Positions 11,769-28,657 of a stretch of DNA of 39,898 nucleotides are shown here, piece after piece. The notes beneath the pieces are model-generated. The model searched no databases, was not told the DNA's origin, and was given only the letters and a program-made list of their open reading frames with translations. Origin of the DNA: a virus; the IMG/VR virus record IMGVR_UViG_3300037493_001559, positions 1 to 39,898 of that record, one strand, 5' to 3'. A program made the translations under genes and the position numbers. Numbering within the stretch: the first letter of the stretch is position 1; every line of letters starts with the position of its first letter.

Positions 11769-12995
11769 CTATTTATTAATCTTAAGAAAATGACGATAAA
11801 AAGTATTTAGCGTATATCTGACCGTATCTAACAAGTCGGATTTACGTATATCATTAGATCGGTCTTTCTTAATATCCCCGTTATCATCCACCTCTACGTA
11901 CTTCATATCCCTGATAGTCCAATGTAAGTCGGGGTGGAACTTAACATCACCATTCTGTAACATCGAGTTTAGTAACACCCTCGTATCGGATATAGCGGGG
12001 TTGATAGTAGGCGTTTTCATCTGTTGCTCAGTTAAGTTCAACTTCATCTTTATAATCTGATAGTAGTTGATATTACCCTTACTAACGGCTGATCTCGCCC
12101 GACCTGTTGCATCACCAGTAACTAAGAAAACGGCATTCGGAAAGAAAGCATTTATCCTATCGCATAACTCATAAATGTCCGAATTAGGTAATACGAACTC
12201 TTTAAGGAAGTGAATACTACTAATGAAATCGCCCTGACTTGCAACGGCTGTAATGGGATCAACGTTGAAGTCGAAGGATATGATAACGGGTTTATTCTCG
12301 TTAAATGCAACGTCCGAAGTAACATGAGTATCTTCATCAAAGGCGTAGGCAAATGGATTATTAGAGAGGTCAACATCTTCGGCTAATATCTCACAACGGA
12401 AGGATAACTCATCCATAGTTGAGCGTATCTCTTCAATCTCATCCCTATCAATGTACGGATTATCATAAGTCGATAGGTTAAAGGATGCAAAATTAAACTT
12501 CTTGGTAGCGTGTAGTTCCTTGAAGAAGGTCTGCCCAAATTTAGGGGTTGATAGCACCCAAGCATCCCCTTTGTAGTCCATCAAGGTTGGTAATATTGTA
12601 TTTTGCCATGCCTCCCTAAACTTCTTAGCCTTCTCCGCCTCGTCCACGATAGCTCGTGCATATTCGCGACCTCTCCCGCTATCGGGGTTTGACATACTCC
12701 AAAAGTCGATAGTACCGCCAGTAACGAGTTTTATCTGCTTCGTCTGTTCGTTCTTCTTGGAAATGGCAGGGCGTAAACGTAATAATACCTCTTGCCATAC
12801 TTCGGATAGGTCAGTATAGGTAGGTGCCCAATACGCTACGGGTTTACCGCTGAGTGCTATCTTCGGGATTAGGTAATTAACCGCCATTGTGGTCTTACCG
12901 AATCTCCTCCCGATCTTTAGGAAGTTGAATCGTTTCGCCGACTGCAATACCGCCTGTTGCCCCGAATGTAGCTTCTTTAACTTGATGTTAATCAT
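11769..12995 (-). CDS. terL: Terminase large subunit
   Basis: The 408-aa motor and nuclease packs the DNA through the portal. Walker A is GRRFGKTT (29-36), Walker B with catalytic Glu is IVDEAE (116-121). The C-terminal RNase H-like nuclease shows the acidic residues in SFDFNVD (Asp242), VTGDATG (Asp294) and KSDLLD (Asp387). The length is typical of a compact TerL. It overlaps the small subunit gene by 8 bp. Confidence 0.93.
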   Translation of the reverse strand: MINIKLKKLHSGQQAVLQSAKRFNFLKIGRRFGKTTMAVNYLIPKIALSGKPVAYWAPTYTDLSEVWQEVLLRLRPAISKKNEQTKQIKLVTGGTIDFWSMSNPDSGRGREYARAIVDEAEKAKKFREAWQNTILPTLMDYKGDAWVLSTPKFGQTFFKELHATKKFNFASFNLSTYDNPYIDRDEIEEIRSTMDELSFRCEILAEDVDLSNNPFAYAFDEDTHVTSDVAFNENKPVIISFDFNVDPITAVASQGDFISSIHFLKEFVLPNSDIYELCDRINAFFPNAVFLVTGDATGRARSAVSKGNINYYQIIKMKLNLTEQQMKTPTINPAISDTRVLLNSMLQNGDVKFHPDLHWTIRDMKYVEVDDNGDIKKDRSNDIRKSDLLDTVRYTLNTFYRHFLKINK

Positions 12996-13265: not shown

Positions 13266-13925
13266 TTATAGTCCTTGCGTCAATAGTAACGCTTCACTAT
13301 CGGTAACATCATACGAAATTAATGATTTCGGATGAGTTAACTGCAATTTATGTTGATCGGCTATAAATCCGAGTACTATCTGATCGTGTCTAGAGCCTAA
13401 ACATCTCATGTCTGAGGTTATCTCACCATTGGCATTCGAGTACTCACCGCCAAATAGATTCCACTTGTGGATGTAGTCAAATATCCAATCTTGATACGGG
13501 AAGTTATGCAATGATACGCCAATCACACACGCCATCGGATGAGGCATCCCTTCGGCTTCATCCCTTGTTACCCCGAACGCTTTCAATTGTTCGTCTGTTG
13601 ACCAATTCGCTTGATTCCATCCATTGCGGAATATCAAGTACTCGTTATTCTCCACAATAGCGAACAACTTCATTAAGTCGCCTTGTACCCATACAGCTGA
13701 GTCCATCCAAATGATACTGTCGTACTTCATAGTGATAGCATAGAGGAAGGCAAATGACTTAAAGGCATACGGCATATCCTGATGAGTAGGTGATCCTACG
13801 GGATATTCATCATGCCACACGATATGATCGACATCATCGGCATACTTCGCCATTGAGTCAATCTGTCGTTGTAAGCATTTACCGTAATTACCACCAACGG
13901 CTACCGATATAACACAACGCCTCAT
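13266..13925 (-). CDS. Glycosyltransferase-like protein (219 aa)
   Basis: Opens with RRCVISVAVGGNYGKCLQRQ and has SIIWMDSAVWV near 69-79, a GT-A-like strand where a single Asp replaces the full DxD. The general outline resembles nucleotide-sugar transferases acting on glycans. Last gene of a chain in which successive genes overlap by 4 bp (ATGA), and it is followed by the terminase genes. Target unknown. Confidence 0.6.
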   Translation of the reverse strand: MRRCVISVAVGGNYGKCLQRQIDSMAKYADDVDHIVWHDEYPVGSPTHQDMPYAFKSFAFLYAITMKYDSIIWMDSAVWVQGDLMKLFAIVENNEYLIFRNGWNQANWSTDEQLKAFGVTRDEAEGMPHPMACVIGVSLHNFPYQDWIFDYIHKWNLFGGEYSNANGEITSDMRCLGSRHDQIVLGFIADQHKLQLTHPKSLISYDVTDSEALLLTQGL

Positions 13926-14521
13926 CGAGCCATTATTAAGTTTTCACCGTTGAACAATAGCTCTTTCGTATAGTCATATTGGCGACATAACGAACGAAGA
14001 TAGTCCGCCTCGTTATCATGCTCAATACAGATTACTTTACAGTTCTTGTACATCGGTATCATCACCTTCGCTATCTCAGACGAAATGCCCTCCACGTCAA
14101 TATTGATGAAGTCAAACGTGTCATTGAACTGATGAAATAGGGTAAGCGCCGATACACTCATCACTAAGCACTCGTTGAACTTAACATCTTTTGCCCACTT
14201 GTTACGGTGGTTCTCTTCGGTAGTACCTACCATATCACCATTCGATGAATAGAAGGTCTTAATGCCCGTATCGTGTGGATCAACGGCAGCGCATAAGGTG
14301 AGCGTGTTATGTCCGATGTTATTCTTTCGGCAGTTCTCAGCATTCCCGAAGTCAGCTTCCACCAATACACCTCGCCAACCTTGCTCTATCAAGGCTCGTG
14401 AGTTACTGAATGTTATCCCATCAAATGCTCCGATGTCTAACACTCGACCTGAGTATTGTTGTATTGAGTCGAAGTAAGATTGAATAGCGATGTCCTCGCC
14501 ATTTTGCCCGTATGTTTTCAT
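13922..14521 (-). CDS. FkbM-family SAM methyltransferase
   Basis: The 199-aa protein begins MKTYGQNGEDIAI and has RVLDIGAFDGITFSNSRAL (26-44), the SAM-binding motif I, then VLVEAD (motif II acidic residue), and DFINIDVEGISSEI near 135-148, the FkbM post-motif. FkbM enzymes O-methylate sugars or polyketides. Position between glycosyltransferases suggests that it caps or decorates the same glycan. Overlaps both neighbours by 4 bp. Confidence 0.82.
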   Translation of the reverse strand: MKTYGQNGEDIAIQSYFDSIQQYSGRVLDIGAFDGITFSNSRALIEQGWRGVLVEADFGNAENCRKNNIGHNTLTLCAAVDPHDTGIKTFYSSNGDMVGTTEENHRNKWAKDVKFNECLVMSVSALTLFHQFNDTFDFINIDVEGISSEIAKVMIPMYKNCKVICIEHDNEADYLRSLCRQYDYTKELLFNGENLIMAR

Positions 14522-15060
14522 TTGTTTGAGTTGTAAAGGTAATAATACATGATGTCATCAATAAATTCAGCCCGTTCAATTAATCCTGAATCAGCTAATC
14601 GCATAGAAAAATCAGCATCCTCGCCATGTTTCAAGTCGATATATCCCACCGCCTTAACGATAGATGTTTTAATCACGTTGATATGCGATATAGGGCGGAT
14701 AAAGTGAGCGGAATAGTTCTCGTATGGATGTCCGTACTTATGCTCGAATACTCTCGGTTGACCTCCGTTAACGGTTATCTCACCCTTGAATCCGATAGCG
14801 TCAGGGAACGAATCTAAGGCTTTTAAATGGCTTTCAATATAGTTAGGTGATACTACATCATCATCGTCAATAAACACGCAATAAGGCGTTTTAACCCTTT
14901 TAACCATGTACTGCCTTATCTGACCTATCGACATTGTCCCTTCATCCTCATAAATCTGAATACTGATAGCATCGTTTAGTTGAGGTGCGAGGCAATCTAA
15001 TAACCGATTGAGTTGAATCTTTCGGCTCTTCAATGTCGGAATCATGATCGTCATTATCAT
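14518..15060 (-). CDS. Glycosyltransferase family 2
   Basis: Compact 180-aa GT-A protein. The N-terminus MIMTIMIPTLKSRKIQLNRL is the usual first strand, VFIDDDDVVSPNYIESH (62-78) is the metal-binding DxD region, and HGEDADFSMRL (149-159) matches the ED acidic motif with the catalytic base of GT2 enzymes. It is short for GT2, so it may act with the neighbouring transferases. Coupled to both neighbours by ATGA overlaps. Confidence 0.78.
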   Translation of the reverse strand: MIMTIMIPTLKSRKIQLNRLLDCLAPQLNDAISIQIYEDEGTMSIGQIRQYMVKRVKTPYCVFIDDDDVVSPNYIESHLKALDSFPDAIGFKGEITVNGGQPRVFEHKYGHPYENYSAHFIRPISHINVIKTSIVKAVGYIDLKHGEDADFSMRLADSGLIERAEFIDDIMYYYLYNSNK

Positions 15061-15713
15061 AAGTCGTAATTTCTTAGCCTTAGTTTCTCAATCGCTATCT
15101 TGCCCATCTCATAGGCGTATGTACTATTCTCATGCTGATAGGTTGCATCGTTCTTGCTCAATCCAACGGTATAGTGCAAGTGCTGAAATAACAGATAACG
15201 TGCATCAATAAGGCAATTTAATTTCTGAGCAACCTCTAATAGTGCATTGTCAGCAAATAGACTGAAAAAGTCAGGATGATAGATGTACCCTAATCGCTCG
15301 TATAATGCTCTATTGATAATCGGCAATGAAAGAATATCACCCGCAGTACATATCCCATCATCAATCAATATCGCACATGGATAGTTATTGTCGGTTATTA
15401 GTTCGGTTAATGACTCATCCCAACTTTCGGGACAATCGAAGTCATCGGATACTAGTATAATCAAGTCTCCTGTACTCTTTGAAACGCCCTTATTGGCAGC
15501 CTCTACTAAACATATATTTTCATTAATTGTCAATCGCAATCCCTTGATATCGTTGATTAACTCTAGATAGTCAAAAAGTGTTGTATCGTCCGTATCAAGC
15601 GAAAAGATGTACTCAATATTCTTACGGTTCTTAGCACGATTTAGCCATTTGTTAGCCGTATCAATAGCTATCTGTGGACGACCTTTCGAGGGGTGAACTA
15701 ATGATATTTTCAT
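15057..15713 (-). CDS. Glycosyltransferase, GT2-like
   Basis: A 218-aa protein with MKISLVHPSKGRPQIA at the start, IFSLDTDDTTLF (36-47) and LIILVSDDFDCPESWDE (104-120), the second being the metal-binding loop in GT-A folds. First transferase in the chain; overlaps the DUF1064 gene by 4 bp upstream and the next transferase by 4 bp downstream. Substrate unknown. Confidence 0.72.
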   Translation of the reverse strand: MKISLVHPSKGRPQIAIDTANKWLNRAKNRKNIEYIFSLDTDDTTLFDYLELINDIKGLRLTINENICLVEAANKGVSKSTGDLIILVSDDFDCPESWDESLTELITDNNYPCAILIDDGICTAGDILSLPIINRALYERLGYIYHPDFFSLFADNALLEVAQKLNCLIDARYLLFQHLHYTVGLSKNDATYQHENSTYAYEMGKIAIEKLRLRNYDL

Positions 15714-24803: not shown

Positions 24804-25943
24804 TTACAAATCGGCAAACCACTTTCTTATTATAGGGTCTTTTTTTCTTATGATATTCTTTTTCTCTAACTGGTCTTTTGTATAATTTACTGATTCTCCA
24901 TATGTCCATTTTATACTTTTAATATTACCCTCCCAATCACACATTAGCATTCTTTTAACTTGATATTTATAACAATCTTCATCATCTATATGTTGTAGAC
25001 GTGTCCATTGCCATTTAAATATCCTTGCTAATTCGGGATTTATGCTATCCATTAGAAAATCTCGGTATTCTTTCCATGTATTAAATGTATCAGGTAGTGA
25101 TCTGATAGAATAAATCAGATTTTCTTTTCCATAAATAGCAGCAGTATGTACTCCATGTAATCTCTTTTCAAGTTTATTATATGTTTCAGGTTCTAATTCC
25201 TGAAGATCAGTTAAGCATCTAAAGGCCTTTTCGTGAATTAAATTAGATACTCTTAATGTTCGCAAATCTTGACCAAGCATATACATTTTATCATAAATTT
25301 TATTATACTTAAATCCTCCATCAATTAAATATTTCCATACGTCAATATATTTCCAATCTATTATTGGATATGCTTTGTGTGGTTCATTTATTCTTCTTAG
25401 CCAAAATAATTCAGAATCTTCTCCAAACATTACAAATCTTCTATCAGGTGATTCTTCTGCTCTTAATCCTATTATAGAGATACTATTACCTTTCAATTTT
25501 CTTAGGTTTTGCCCAACCCATAAATTAAATTTATGAAATCTTTTAGGATATTTAATATCAATTTCTTGAATCGCTAATTTATTTTTATCTCTTACCCACT
25601 CTTCATTTTCGCCCCAAGCCCATAAAAATAGCTGACTACTACTCGCTGCATTTGTCATAAATATAGGCACTTGATACCATTGTGGAATAACATTTGGTTG
25701 CGACATTGCCCACTCTACAAAATCAATAGTTCCTTGATATTCTGCCTCTTGGTCTTGAAAGTATAATATAAATTTACGATCCCTTTTTTTAGCCTCTTCA
25801 TTTAGAAGATGAAATAGTACAGTACTATCTTTCCCTCCACTAAAAGACAATGAAACATTATCATAATTATCAAAAAGGAATGATATTCTTTTATTAGCAG
25901 CATCTAATACATTTTCCGTTCCTCTTATTGCAGTCCTAGCCAT
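24804..25943 (-). CDS. PAPS-reductase-like ATP pyrophosphatase (DUF3440, IbrA-like)
   Basis: 379 aa. SFSGGKDSTV (33-42) is the PP-loop of N-type ATP pyrophosphatases, followed by YFQDQEAEYQGT, RAEES and a DUF3440-like C-terminal half. These enzymes adenylate a substrate before thiolation or a similar step; DndC of DNA phosphorothioation has the same fold. IbrA/IbrB pairs (this family plus a ParB-like protein) are known from E. coli mobile DNA without a defined reaction. Only three Cys (FRC, EDC, LMC) are found in the C-terminal half, not enough to claim an Fe-S site. Shares one base with the GNAT gene stop. Base composition is clearly more AT-rich than the structural genes. Confidence 0.82.
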   Translation of the reverse strand: MARTAIRGTENVLDAANKRISFLFDNYDNVSLSFSGGKDSTVLFHLLNEEAKKRDRKFILYFQDQEAEYQGTIDFVEWAMSQPNVIPQWYQVPIFMTNAASSSQLFLWAWGENEEWVRDKNKLAIQEIDIKYPKRFHKFNLWVGQNLRKLKGNSISIIGLRAEESPDRRFVMFGEDSELFWLRRINEPHKAYPIIDWKYIDVWKYLIDGGFKYNKIYDKMYMLGQDLRTLRVSNLIHEKAFRCLTDLQELEPETYNKLEKRLHGVHTAAIYGKENLIYSIRSLPDTFNTWKEYRDFLMDSINPELARIFKWQWTRLQHIDDEDCYKYQVKRMLMCDWEGNIKSIKWTYGESVNYTKDQLEKKNIIRKKDPIIRKWFADL

Positions 25944-26311
25944 TATAATGTATATTTAATTTTAGTACAACATTTATATTGCTTTATTATTTCAGCACCT
26001 TTATTAAGATGATACCCTAAACTTTTATTAGTCATATTACCTTCTATTGAATTTATTCCTAATTCTTTTATGTAAGCAAATCTAAACTCATTTAACTTAC
26101 TATAAATCCCTTTCCCTCTATGACTATTTAAAACAAAACCATTTTTAAGAATAGCAGTTTTGTTTTTTATCATTAATCCGCAAAAGCCGACAAGAATATT
26201 ATTATCAAAATATCCAAAATAAATATTCGTTGAATTATTAAATGTCAATCCATTTAATTGCGCTATTCTTTTTAATGTATATATTTCTGATTTATCTATT
26301 TGCTTTATCAT
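25943..26311 (-). CDS. GNAT acetyltransferase
   Basis: 122 aa. VGFCGLMIKNKTAILKNGFV leads to LNSHRGKGIYSKL, the R/Q-x-x-G-x-G/A acetyl-CoA loop, and IEGNMTNKSLGYHLNKGA gives the last helix-strand pair (N-x-x-h-x-h-h-x-K-x-G). It would transfer an acyl group from acyl-CoA. Joined by ATGA to the ParB-like gene and by TAATG to the DUF3440 gene, so production of the three proteins is coupled. Confidence 0.78.
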   Translation of the reverse strand: MIKQIDKSEIYTLKRIAQLNGLTFNNSTNIYFGYFDNNILVGFCGLMIKNKTAILKNGFVLNSHRGKGIYSKLNEFRFAYIKELGINSIEGNMTNKSLGYHLNKGAEIIKQYKCCTKIKYTL

Positions 26312-26856
26312 AATTCTTCTTCTATATCAATTTCAACATCTTTTATTTGTCGCTCTATTGAGTATGGCACACCTTTAATTTCTGATGCAATTCCTTTGAT
26401 TCCAATAAGTCGTTGAACCTCTTCCAATGTCATTCCAAGTTCTTTCATTATCTTGAGTTCATCCCATCCTTGCTTCAACATTCCCACTAATGATGCCTGT
26501 AATTCCACTTCATGTTTTCCTCTTGCTCTATTATGTCTAATCGTTGATGCCATTCGATCCGATATATCTTTTTGAATTACAGAAACAGGAAGCATTCCAT
26601 TTTCACGTTCAAAAATATCCTTTCTTGTAATTAGAATAGTATATCTATGAAATCCATCGACAATAATATACTTATCTCTACCTTCATCATAGAAACATAC
26701 AACAGGCATTGTATATCCATCGGCTTTAATTGACTGATACAATAAGTCCATTTCTCTTTTAGCAACATGATTAGGGTTATAATCATTTGCTTCAATCTTT
26801 TCGATTGGTACTGCCTGTACATTATACACTGGGCTTTTAAATGTGTTCGTTTTCAT
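26308..26856 (-). CDS. ParB/sulfiredoxin-fold protein (IbrB-like)
   Basis: 182 aa. IEANDYNPNHVAKREMDLL (21-39) and IIVDGFHRYT (64-73) give the ParB/Srx signature; the DGFHR box parallels the DGQHR box of DndB. RHNRARGKH (107-115) is typical of the ParB-like partner of DUF3440 enzymes, and a helix-turn-helix-like region follows (LKIMKELGMTLEEVQRLIG). Could bind DNA and direct the partner enzyme. ATGA overlap with the SNF2 gene. Confidence 0.82.
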   Translation of the reverse strand: MKTNTFKSPVYNVQAVPIEKIEANDYNPNHVAKREMDLLYQSIKADGYTMPVVCFYDEGRDKYIIVDGFHRYTILITRKDIFERENGMLPVSVIQKDISDRMASTIRHNRARGKHEVELQASLVGMLKQGWDELKIMKELGMTLEEVQRLIGIKGIASEIKGVPYSIERQIKDVEIDIEEEL

Positions 26857-28043
26857 AGTTCTTTTTTTAGTTGTTCTGTTCCTACTTTTTTAAAGTAATC
26901 TAATAGTGATTGTTTATTATTTATATTTCTATCAATTAATGATTCAAGACATACATTACCTGTCATTGACCAATATGTGCAATCTGATTGTTGACCTGTT
27001 CGATATGTACGGAATCTACTTTGTATCATTTGAGAATAATCAAAAGTCTTATCAAAATAAATGGTTGTATTGTATTCTTGTAAGTTTAATCCAAAAGAGT
27101 GCATACCATAGCTTAACACTTTTATTTTTGGATATCGTTTCTGTATTTCTTCACGGCTTTTAATGTACTTACAATATATTAATACTTTTGATACATTTTC
27201 ATTTTCTAATATTTTGTCTAATGCAATAAATTTATTTTCTGATAAACAATAATTGTGTTGCATTTTCTGCGTTAACTCAAGAAATATATTATTATTTAAA
27301 AACTTTAATTTTTCGTTATCTAAATATTCATTTTTAATAAATTTATACTGATCTAATTCATCTTGGGATAACTCATAATCAATGTTTTTATATTCTTGTT
27401 TAATTGATAAACTTAAATCACACTCATAAACATAATGATTAATCAAAGAATAAAGATGTTCGATATTATGATATGCACTTATATATTCCTTTGATTTTGT
27501 AATATTACCTATTCTCTTAGTTATTGTTGTATACTCACAAAATGTATTCTTAAATTCTGCAATATCCATATTAAGAATTAAAGGTGAAAGAAATTTAAAT
27601 TGCGCCCATATGTCAAGTAGATTACGTGTTAATGGTGTTCCATTTAGTATTAATTTATACTCGCAATATTTACCATATTCAATAATTCTTTTAGTTCGTA
27701 TTGCATCGTAATTTTTAATCTTCAATGATTCATCTACTACTAAGAAATAGTTGCCGCTTTTTAATAAATTTGATATTTCCAAATAAATCCTATCGCTACT
27801 ACTTAATGTTTCTATTCCGTAAATGTGCAAATTACTTAACCCTCCACACTTAGCTATCTCTTCCTTTATGTTTAACTTATTCTGAAATGGAGTAAGCCAT
27901 ATGATTCCATCACATTTAACTGACTTTATCAGTTCAAATGCAGTTCTTGTTTTGCCAGTTCCCATCTCCATAAATAAAGCACCTACCTTATATTTACGAA
28001 TCTTTTCAATAGCATTAATTTGATTATCTAATAAGGTCTGCAT
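26853..28043 (-). CDS. SNF2-type DNA helicase/translocase (396 aa)
   Basis: Walker A MEMGTGKT (25-32), DExx-type box LVVDES (101-106), NGTPLTR (134-140, motif III), VLIYCKY (287-293, motif IV) and QSRFRTYRTGQ (341-351, motif VI). The segment between motifs IV and V is much shorter than usual, a compact phage-type helicase. It lacks a nuclease domain. It heads the coupled set with the ParB-like, GNAT and DUF3440 genes, so it probably moves along DNA in the same system. Extremely AT-rich gene. Confidence 0.83.
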   Translation of the reverse strand: MQTLLDNQINAIEKIRKYKVGALFMEMGTGKTRTAFELIKSVKCDGIIWLTPFQNKLNIKEEIAKCGGLSNLHIYGIETLSSSDRIYLEISNLLKSGNYFLVVDESLKIKNYDAIRTKRIIEYGKYCEYKLILNGTPLTRNLLDIWAQFKFLSPLILNMDIAEFKNTFCEYTTITKRIGNITKSKEYISAYHNIEHLYSLINHYVYECDLSLSIKQEYKNIDYELSQDELDQYKFIKNEYLDNEKLKFLNNNIFLELTQKMQHNYCLSENKFIALDKILENENVSKVLIYCKYIKSREEIQKRYPKIKVLSYGMHSFGLNLQEYNTTIYFDKTFDYSQMIQSRFRTYRTGQQSDCTYWSMTGNVCLESLIDRNINNKQSLLDYFKKVGTEQLKKEL

Positions 28044-28308
28044 TGGGATCTATTTTAACTGCATCTATTTTATTAGGAATATGCTTTACAACTATTTCTG
28101 TTGCTTCATCTTCTGATGGAGATTGCCCGAAAATATTCTCATATAGCCATGTGGGAATACTCATATTACCACCTAACTTTTTATTGAGTATAAAGTTGAA
28201 GCATAATTTCTTTGGAAACCAATATTCAGTATATCCAATTTGAAGGAGGACAGCTTTACCCGTTTCCCCCTTTAATTTATCAAATCTTACATAAGCCTTC
28301 GCTATCAT
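28024..28308 (-). CDS. Hypothetical protein of the accessory operon (94 aa)
   Basis: MIAKAYVRFDKLKGETGKAV then LLQIGYTEYWFPKKLC, later WLYENIFGQSPSEDEA. Beta-rich start. Overlaps the gene before by 29 bp and the SNF2 gene by 20 bp. Not recognised; may be a fifth component of the SNF2 module or a small partner. Confidence 0.6.
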   Translation of the reverse strand: MIAKAYVRFDKLKGETGKAVLLQIGYTEYWFPKKLCFNFILNKKLGGNMSIPTWLYENIFGQSPSEDEATEIVVKHIPNKIDAVKIDPNADLIR

Positions 28309-28585
28309 CTGAGTTTTCTGTTGGATTTAAAATTTCTTCAATCTCAGATAATATTGACTCTCTTACTTGTTTTTCCTGTGATGAAATCCAATTATAGTCC
28401 TGTGAAGGGCATTCAATGCGACAGCTAACTAAAAACTCCCCTTCCTTTTCAAAGATAAATGCTTTTGTAGACATTTTCTTTGTATTAAATCCACGATCTA
28501 AGTAGATTCTTTTCATATCGCCCTTAATCCAAAGTTTACCTGCGATAGTCTCTGATAATTGCTCAAGTGTTAATGATGTGTTCAT
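28280..28585 (-). CDS. First gene of the early operon (101 aa, unknown)
   Basis: The ATG at 28585 (MNTSLTLEQLSETIAGKLWI) is used because the promoter's -7 element is at 28626-28633; the in-frame ATG at 28639 lies inside the promoter and cannot be in the mRNA. The protein is soluble with a C-terminal acidic end. Probably an immediate early protein; function unknown. Confidence 0.65.
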   Translation of the reverse strand: MNTSLTLEQLSETIAGKLWIKGDMKRIYLDRGFNTKKMSTKAFIFEKEGEFLVSCRIECPSQDYNWISSQEKQVRESILSEIEEILNPTENSDDSEGLCKI

Positions 28586-28624
28586 GTTGTTTGTTTTTTG
28601 TTTGTTTTTTGTTTGTTTGATGAA

Positions 28625-28657
28625 GCAAATATATATCATGTATATACGTTTTGCAAG
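28625..28657 (-). promoter_or_regulatory. Early promoter, 33-bp repeat copy 1
   Basis: Same 33 bases as 24733-24765 (TTG-20 bp-TATATTTG). It lies between the terminator of the lysis operon and the first accessory gene. The leader after it (TTCATCAAACAAAC) is shared with the promoter at 22.5 kb. Presumably read by unmodified host RNA polymerase right after infection. Confidence 0.82.

Follow-up and report, generated by a model that had tools for sequence, protein, structure and literature searches.

What the proteins of a small, tightly packed phage gene cassette do together is the question raised by IMG/VR virus record IMGVR_UViG_3300037493_001559, which was analysed over 39,898 bases (hereafter, the window, meaning this whole stretch). 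The cassette consists of genes for an SNF2-family ATPase, a ParB-like protein resembling IbrB, a GNAT, and a phosphoadenosine phosphosulfate (PAPS)-reductase/DUF3440 protein resembling IbrA (hereafter, PAPSR), joined by ATGA, ATGA and TAATG junctions. The earlier note on this locus, made from the sequence alone, had listed these four genes with their positions, motifs and junctions; all are present as claimed, and family searches agree with the assignments. IbrA/IbrB pairs occur widely, in phages and prophages as well as on bacterial chromosomes, and are commonly annotated as sulfur-metabolism genes or vague co-activators, with no known reaction. We put at roughly 55% the probability that phages use a modular modification system, most likely for DNA hypermodification, of which this cassette is one form, namely, the acyltransferase version carried by the window.

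The IbrA-IbrB core

PAPSR matches both PF01507 PAPS_reduct (8.8e-17) and PF11922 DUF3440 (1.8e-9) above the Pfam cut-offs, its best PHROGs family being phrog_2302 (1.8e-118). In the predicted structure (mean pLDDT 84), a helical DUF3440 part follows a PAPS-reductase/FAD-synthase fold, and comparison of the model with FAD synthase, APS/PAPS reductase and ATP sulfurylase yields Z of 13-15.5, the value of 15.5 being reached with FAD synthase and APS reductase. The motifs SGGKDS, DxE, GxRxxES and PIxDWxxxD(V/I) are invariant or almost so across the IbrA family, and an alignment of 54 diverse IbrA proteins contains no invariant or nearly invariant cysteine. Given this lack of an invariant cysteine, PAPSR appears to be neither an assimilatory reductase nor DndC-like; it scores 31 bits against the 165 required by the NCBIfam CysH models, far under every CysH cut-off, and matches the DndC profile weakly (6.5e-6). 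PAPSR is an IbrA-like PP-loop ATP pyrophosphatase, and we propose it as the enzyme that installs the modification. Both phrog_2302 and phage records label the family as an 'auxiliary metabolic gene' or 'phosphoadenosine phosphosulfate reductase', and this sulfur-metabolism label is probably a misannotation that touches many reports of viral cysH.

The ParB-like protein belongs firmly to phrog_2159 (5.6e-85), with a Pfam ParB_N match slightly below the cut-off (6.1e-5); it contains the motifs ANDYNPN, DGFHR and TIRHNRARGxH and combines a ParB/Srx fold with a helix-turn-helix (HTH). When its model (pLDDT 77) was compared using Foldseek, ParB, Noc and KorB were retrieved at E-values of 3e-7 to 1e-5 with TM of about 0.45-0.57, and the serine kinases SbnI/SerK, which share the fold, can also be reached with the profile of this family. 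We propose that this protein is a nucleoside triphosphate (NTP)-dependent DNA binder or platform.

The two genes stay together. With the window PAPSR as query, IMG/VR yielded 43 loci (the close set, 44 with the window), and ParB-PAPSR is kept in all 43; the ParB-like protein is the most conserved (about 76-92% identity to the window), followed by PAPSR (66-82%) and SNF2 (mostly 43-78%). A profile search of viral and bacterial genome collections raised the total to 251 loci, or 188 non-redundant loci after collapse at 90% PAPSR identity, and ParB lies within four genes of PAPSR in 184 of the 188. The pair is also found in cultured phages of Flavobacterium, Streptococcus, Fusobacterium, Microcystis, Faecalibacterium, Mycobacterium and Arthrobacter; the cultured Flavobacterium phages have the SNF2-ParB-PAPSR triad without GNAT, annotated as IbrA/IbrB, and the pair in Flavobacterium phages FCL-2 and 6H was reported under these names (PMC4541368). 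Flavobacterium phages 2A and FCV-1 have the core with SNF2, and in Streptococcus phage CHPC1148 the gene order is SNF2-IbrA-IbrB. Judging from these neighbourhoods, the core of the module is the PAPSR (IbrA) and ParB-like (IbrB) pair.

The variable slot and the putative SNF2 motor

The window GNAT is recognised by Pfam Acetyltransf_1 slightly above the cut-off (3.9e-4), and the profile of its family (A5) matches solved GNAT structures at 1e-13. It is present in only three of the 44 close loci (the window, L004 and L008); tblastn against phage records gave no match, a single-sequence scan gave no relative, and the family surfaced solely through clustering of genes around distant PAPSRs. When genes located no more than four positions from PAPSR were clustered, this GNAT family appeared among several other putative decorating families (Table 1). 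These families account for 21% of the genes at position -1 from PAPSR, 10% at -2 and 5% at +1, and for 0-0.7% of the genes five or more positions away. The minimum number of changes on the PAPSR tree is 14 for GNAT, 16 for the glycosyltransferase (GT), 16 for the methyltransferase (MT) and 6 for the oxygenase-like family, and even within the window's own 30-member PAPSR clade, different members pair the core with GNAT, GT or MT. Some loci hold two or three decorating enzymes, for example, GT, MT and GNAT in L129; in Microbacterium phage Hendrix, PAPSR is directly preceded by genes for two GTs, an MT and a GNAT.

Because the families were drawn from PAPSR neighbours, searches that start from the decorating families provide an independent test. 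The queries were the oxygenase-like family, one GNAT subfamily and a single GT protein. For the oxygenase-like family, PAPSR was found within 1.5 kb in all 59 loci, 55 of which were not seeds, with a GT in 56 of the 59; for the GNAT subfamily, PAPSR was within 1.3 kb in 23/23 newly retrieved loci (two overlap seed contigs); and for the GT, PAPSR was nearby in seven of the eight loci, the eighth running off the contig end. Fusions link the slot to both core proteins: in L139, a GT2-like domain and PAPSR form one open reading frame (ORF), and in the cultured mycobacteriophage Gaia, gp104 is a fusion of ectoine synthase (EctC) and ParB that overlaps the PAPSR gene, gp103. In Pseudoalteromonas phage XCL1123, EctC lies between PAPSR and ParB, and in the EctC-bearing phage record L254, no PAPSR was found in the 4.6 kb of sequence present. 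By these distributions, the decorating enzymes are dedicated to the module and repeatedly swapped, with at least five kinds and with GNAT as one of several interchangeable options; we propose that the window GNAT is a decorating acyltransferase in this variable slot.

The window SNF2 is a single-module protein (Pfam SNF2-rel, 1.9e-10, and Helicase_C, 3.6e-6; phrog_62, 9.6e-63). It lies immediately upstream of ParB in 40 of the 43 close loci, one of these being a 69-aa remnant, and 54 of the 55 matches of its family sit 1-4 genes upstream of PAPSR, in several host phyla and in the orders SNF2-ParB-PAPSR and SNF2-PAPSR-ParB. The gene is missing in about 70% of the 188 non-redundant loci, and we propose that SNF2 is a DNA motor that is a frequent yet dispensable neighbour of the core. 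Two further families occur at -1 or -2 of PAPSR, one in L103-L106 and L121-L122 (286-359 aa) and the other in L096 and L098-L101 (about 250 aa). By eye, they resemble degenerate SNF2 halves; the SNF2 profile gave no match to them, and no such identity is claimed.

These results recast the earlier note. Its view that a ParB-like binder and an adenylating PP-loop enzyme form the heart of a modification system, to which further enzymes and a motor are added, is supported in direction by comparative evidence, and the genes are anything but rare neighbours elsewhere in the case of IbrA-IbrB, SNF2 and the GNAT family. The four genes do not, however, form one fixed unit, and the combination of GNAT and SNF2, in which the note saw the novelty, is neither the core nor a defining feature: GNAT is interchangeable with other slot enzymes, and SNF2 occurs in under a third of the non-redundant loci.

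Table 1. Genes of the cassette in the window, small genes next to it, and enzymes found beside PAPSR in related loci
Feature	Position	Strand	Description or basis
SNF2-family ATPase gene	26853-28043	minus	396 aa
ParB-like (IbrB-like) gene	26308-26856	minus	182 aa, DGFHR motif
GNAT gene	25943-26311	minus	122 aa
PAPS-reductase/DUF3440 (IbrA-like, PAPSR) gene	24804-25943	minus	379 aa, SGGKDS motif
Small conserved gene	28024..28308	minus	94 aa; overlaps SNF2 start; in many loci, 36-73% identity; often travels with the module
Small conserved gene	28280..28639	minus	119 aa; upstream; in many loci; often travels with the module
Slot family: GNAT of the window	beside PAPSR		clustering
Slot family: second, GNAT-like	beside PAPSR		clustering
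Slot family: GT	beside PAPSR		phrog_854 glucosyltransferase, 8.8e-10
Slot family: second, DDD-containing, GT-like	beside PAPSR		motif only
Slot family: DPPW MT	beside PAPSR		nearest to adenine DNA methyltransferases, DpnA 1.4e-7
Slot family: EctC	beside PAPSR		PF06339, 9.7e-42; NF009806, 1.5e-43, above NCBIfam cut-off
Slot enzyme: PhyH-type dioxygenase, one case	beside PAPSR		clustering
Slot family: HxD..H oxygenase-like	beside PAPSR		resembles 2-oxoglutarate oxygenase by motif only

A terminase, a DnaB-like helicase, SSB and a YqaJ-type exonuclease are encoded elsewhere in the window. The G+C content is 28% in the module, 23% in the GNAT gene and 39% in the window, and this AT-richness is consistent with a mobile cassette. 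A glycosyltransferase-like gene cluster with an FkbM-like methyltransferase (13266-15713) adjoins the gene for the terminase large subunit (11769-12995), and an ORF at 14518-15060 matches the slot GT profile weakly (2.4e-6). Among the related loci, a family of about 142 aa (cluster C10) recurs by the pair (L084-L089, L094, L149-L171, L252 and L253), goes with EctC-type loci and exists as a ParB fusion in L168 and L171. In Fusobacterium phage phiFN37 (6010-12954), another ParB gene comes after PAPSR-ParB-SNF2, along with genes for a queuine tRNA-ribosyltransferase-like protein and a queuosine-precursor transporter, so the module may possibly coexist there with 7-deazaguanine DNA modification.

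Readings of the cassette

Under the modification reading, IbrA would adenylate a target and attach a substituent to it, whereas IbrB, with its NTP-binding fold and HTH, would bring IbrA to DNA, and SNF2 would probably move along or remodel the duplex to provide access. The slot enzyme would then decorate the installed group, by GNAT acylation in the window and, in relatives, by glycosylation, methylation, ectoine-synthase-like cyclisation or oxidation. We infer that the steps follow this order, that the substituent has a free amine or hydroxyl, and that the product may protect against host or competitor nucleases. DNA is the likely acceptor because of the ParB-like protein, the SNF2 motor, those slot enzymes that resemble DNA methyltransferases and the occurrence of the module in phages. 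No known primary base modifier (hydroxymethylase, TET/JBP or DpdA) was detected when the minus-strand window ORFs of at least 100 aa were scanned with PHROGs, so that the cassette does not appear to be a member of those pathways. In the open literature, we found no account joining hypermodification with such a gene set, although parts may be described beyond open-access papers.

More tentatively, and with rather less than even confidence, we suggest that IbrA-IbrB could be the core of a so far unrecognised kind of DNA hypermodification: a ParB-directed PP-loop enzyme would add a reactive, perhaps amino-acid-like, group, and swappable acyl-, glycosyl-, methyl-, ectoine-synthase- or oxygenase-type enzymes would diversify it. 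In type IV-B CRISPR operons, the pair could then act as an RNA-directed modifier, and the puzzling cysH link of these operons would gain a function. In L039 and L040, IbrB and IbrA (66-78% identity) lie next to csf-like genes, and in L039/L081 and L040/L082, the pair is inside operons with csf-like genes and a separate CysH-like gene of 249-255 aa. All Csf matches are below the curated cut-offs (L040: Csf2 2.9e-10 and Csf3 1.6e-10; L081: Csf3 2.3e-9). In L097, csf-like genes accompany the pair, a second, shorter CysH-like PP-loop gene and a GT; genes resembling those for a PCNA clamp and QueD were recognised there by eye. The type IV-B-like operons holding the pair span 5346-10515 in L039, 1245-5289 in L040 and 3027-8500 in L097. 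The module neighbourhood in the window lacks csf1-csf3 genes; the type IV-B papers that were searched for ParB do not name it, and a table published in 2015 (PMC4490671) records both IbrA/B and CRISPR/Cas for a single glacial phage-plasmid.

Several points weigh against the modification reading. The forward position profile, unlike the reverse searches, is partly circular, the families having been drawn from genes no more than four positions away from PAPSR. The HxD..H oxygenase-like family has no match in Pfam or the Protein Data Bank (PDB), so that the motif alone supports its identity. No defined decorating family is present in 125 of the 188 loci, and therefore the core must work there alone or with other enzymes. 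Finally, published accounts of the IbrA/IbrB pair are regulatory only, describing co-activators of prophage genes (PMC4490671) and, for ybdNM, control by CitR (PMC9068703).

Among the alternatives, the same modular enzymes could act on another acceptor, namely, RNA or tRNA, a nucleotide, a small molecule or a surface glycan. PP-loop relatives include the tRNA enzymes TilS, TtuA and NcsA as well as FMN adenylyltransferase, EctC and PhyH usually work on small molecules, and GNAT and GT are general families. We nevertheless regard this as unlikely, if worth serious thought, given the ParB/Noc/KorB-type fold with an HTH, the motor upstream in many lineages, the proximity of the MT family to DNA adenine methyltransferases and the EctC-ParB fusion.

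The SNF2 gene, for its part, could be an ordinary replication or recombination gene that lies upstream by chance, with the system consisting of ParB-PAPSR and a slot enzyme, a view that is compatible with DNA modification. Its absence from most non-redundant loci and the replication and recombination genes close by in the window fit this view, which we still consider rather unlikely: nearly all matches of the family lie upstream of PAPSR, whichever gene order applies and across several host phyla, and in the window, the gene is coupled to its neighbour by a start/stop overlap.

The published accounts cited above suggest another possibility, that IbrA and IbrB, as a ParB-like binder with a PP-loop partner, regulate phage or host genes and that the neighbouring genes are unrelated cargo; the enterobacterial pair, moreover, stands alone next to a LysR gene. 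This appears improbable because the catalytic motifs are conserved, dedicated decorating enzymes emerge from both forward and reverse searches, and such enzymes are fused to both IbrA and IbrB.

Phosphorothioation of the Dnd/Ssp type, with IbrA in the role of DndC and IbrB in that of DndB, was the analogy drawn in the earlier note, and it does not hold up. The PAPS reductase and ParB/Srx superfamilies are indeed shared, and there is the weak DndC match, but the lack of an invariant cysteine, the lack of a DndB match for the ParB-like protein, the absence of a desulfurase from the scanned window ORFs, and the acetylating, cyclising and glycosylating partners, ill-suited to a simple sulfur swap, make it very improbable. 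That PAPSR is a viral cysH boosting sulfate assimilation, as its PHROGs class and the fold it has in common with CysH would suggest, is scarcely credible given the missing cysteine, the CysH score and the nearly constant ParB partner. Missing cysteines and missing partners led us to reject both sulfate assimilation and Dnd as the identity of the system.

If DNA modification is indeed the function, phage DNA modification would gain a combinatorial class, many viral 'cysH auxiliary metabolic genes' would prove to be misnamed, and the cysH component of type IV-B CRISPR systems, so far unexplained, would become easier to approach. The dedicated decorating enzymes offer a chemical hint, and the cultured phages make virion DNA measurable.

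Comparison with known systems

The closest known counterpart is IbrA/IbrB, found in many prophages and in E. coli, where the K-12 genes are ybdN-ybdM; it represents the same two families in the same adjacency as in the window. In the papers covered, the two are co-activators or genes without an assigned role, and the decorating slot and SNF2 go unmentioned. The Dnd (DndBCDE) and Ssp/BREX type 4 systems have the PAPS-reductase-fold enzyme in common with the cassette, and DndB is a ParB-superfamily protein (PMC12839542); the differences are the lack of an invariant cysteine in IbrA and the presence of decorating enzymes instead of Dnd partners. None of DndB, DndD, DndE and the desulfurase was found in the scanned window ORFs, although a host desulfurase could be used. 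CasCysH of type IV-B systems, a PP-loop protein, has SGGxDS but lacks the catalytic cysteine (PMC8175902), and in these respects it is akin to the window IbrA. The SNF2 core resembles ZorD of Zorya and DpdE of Dpd, partially and weakly, the window SNF2 being a stand-alone protein of 396 aa, and for the three remaining module proteins, no Zorya or Dpd model gives a match.

Phage DNA hypermodification is exemplified by base J (JBP and GT), glucosylation of hydroxymethylcytosine in T4, thymidine hypermodification and Mu Mom. The cassette differs from the known pathways in that its core is a PP-loop and ParB pair, with no dUMP/dCMP hydroxymethylase or kinase in the scanned ORFs. What it shares with them is their logic, in which a primary modification is then decorated with glycosyl, acyl or other groups, and the pairing of oxygenase-like enzymes with GTs.

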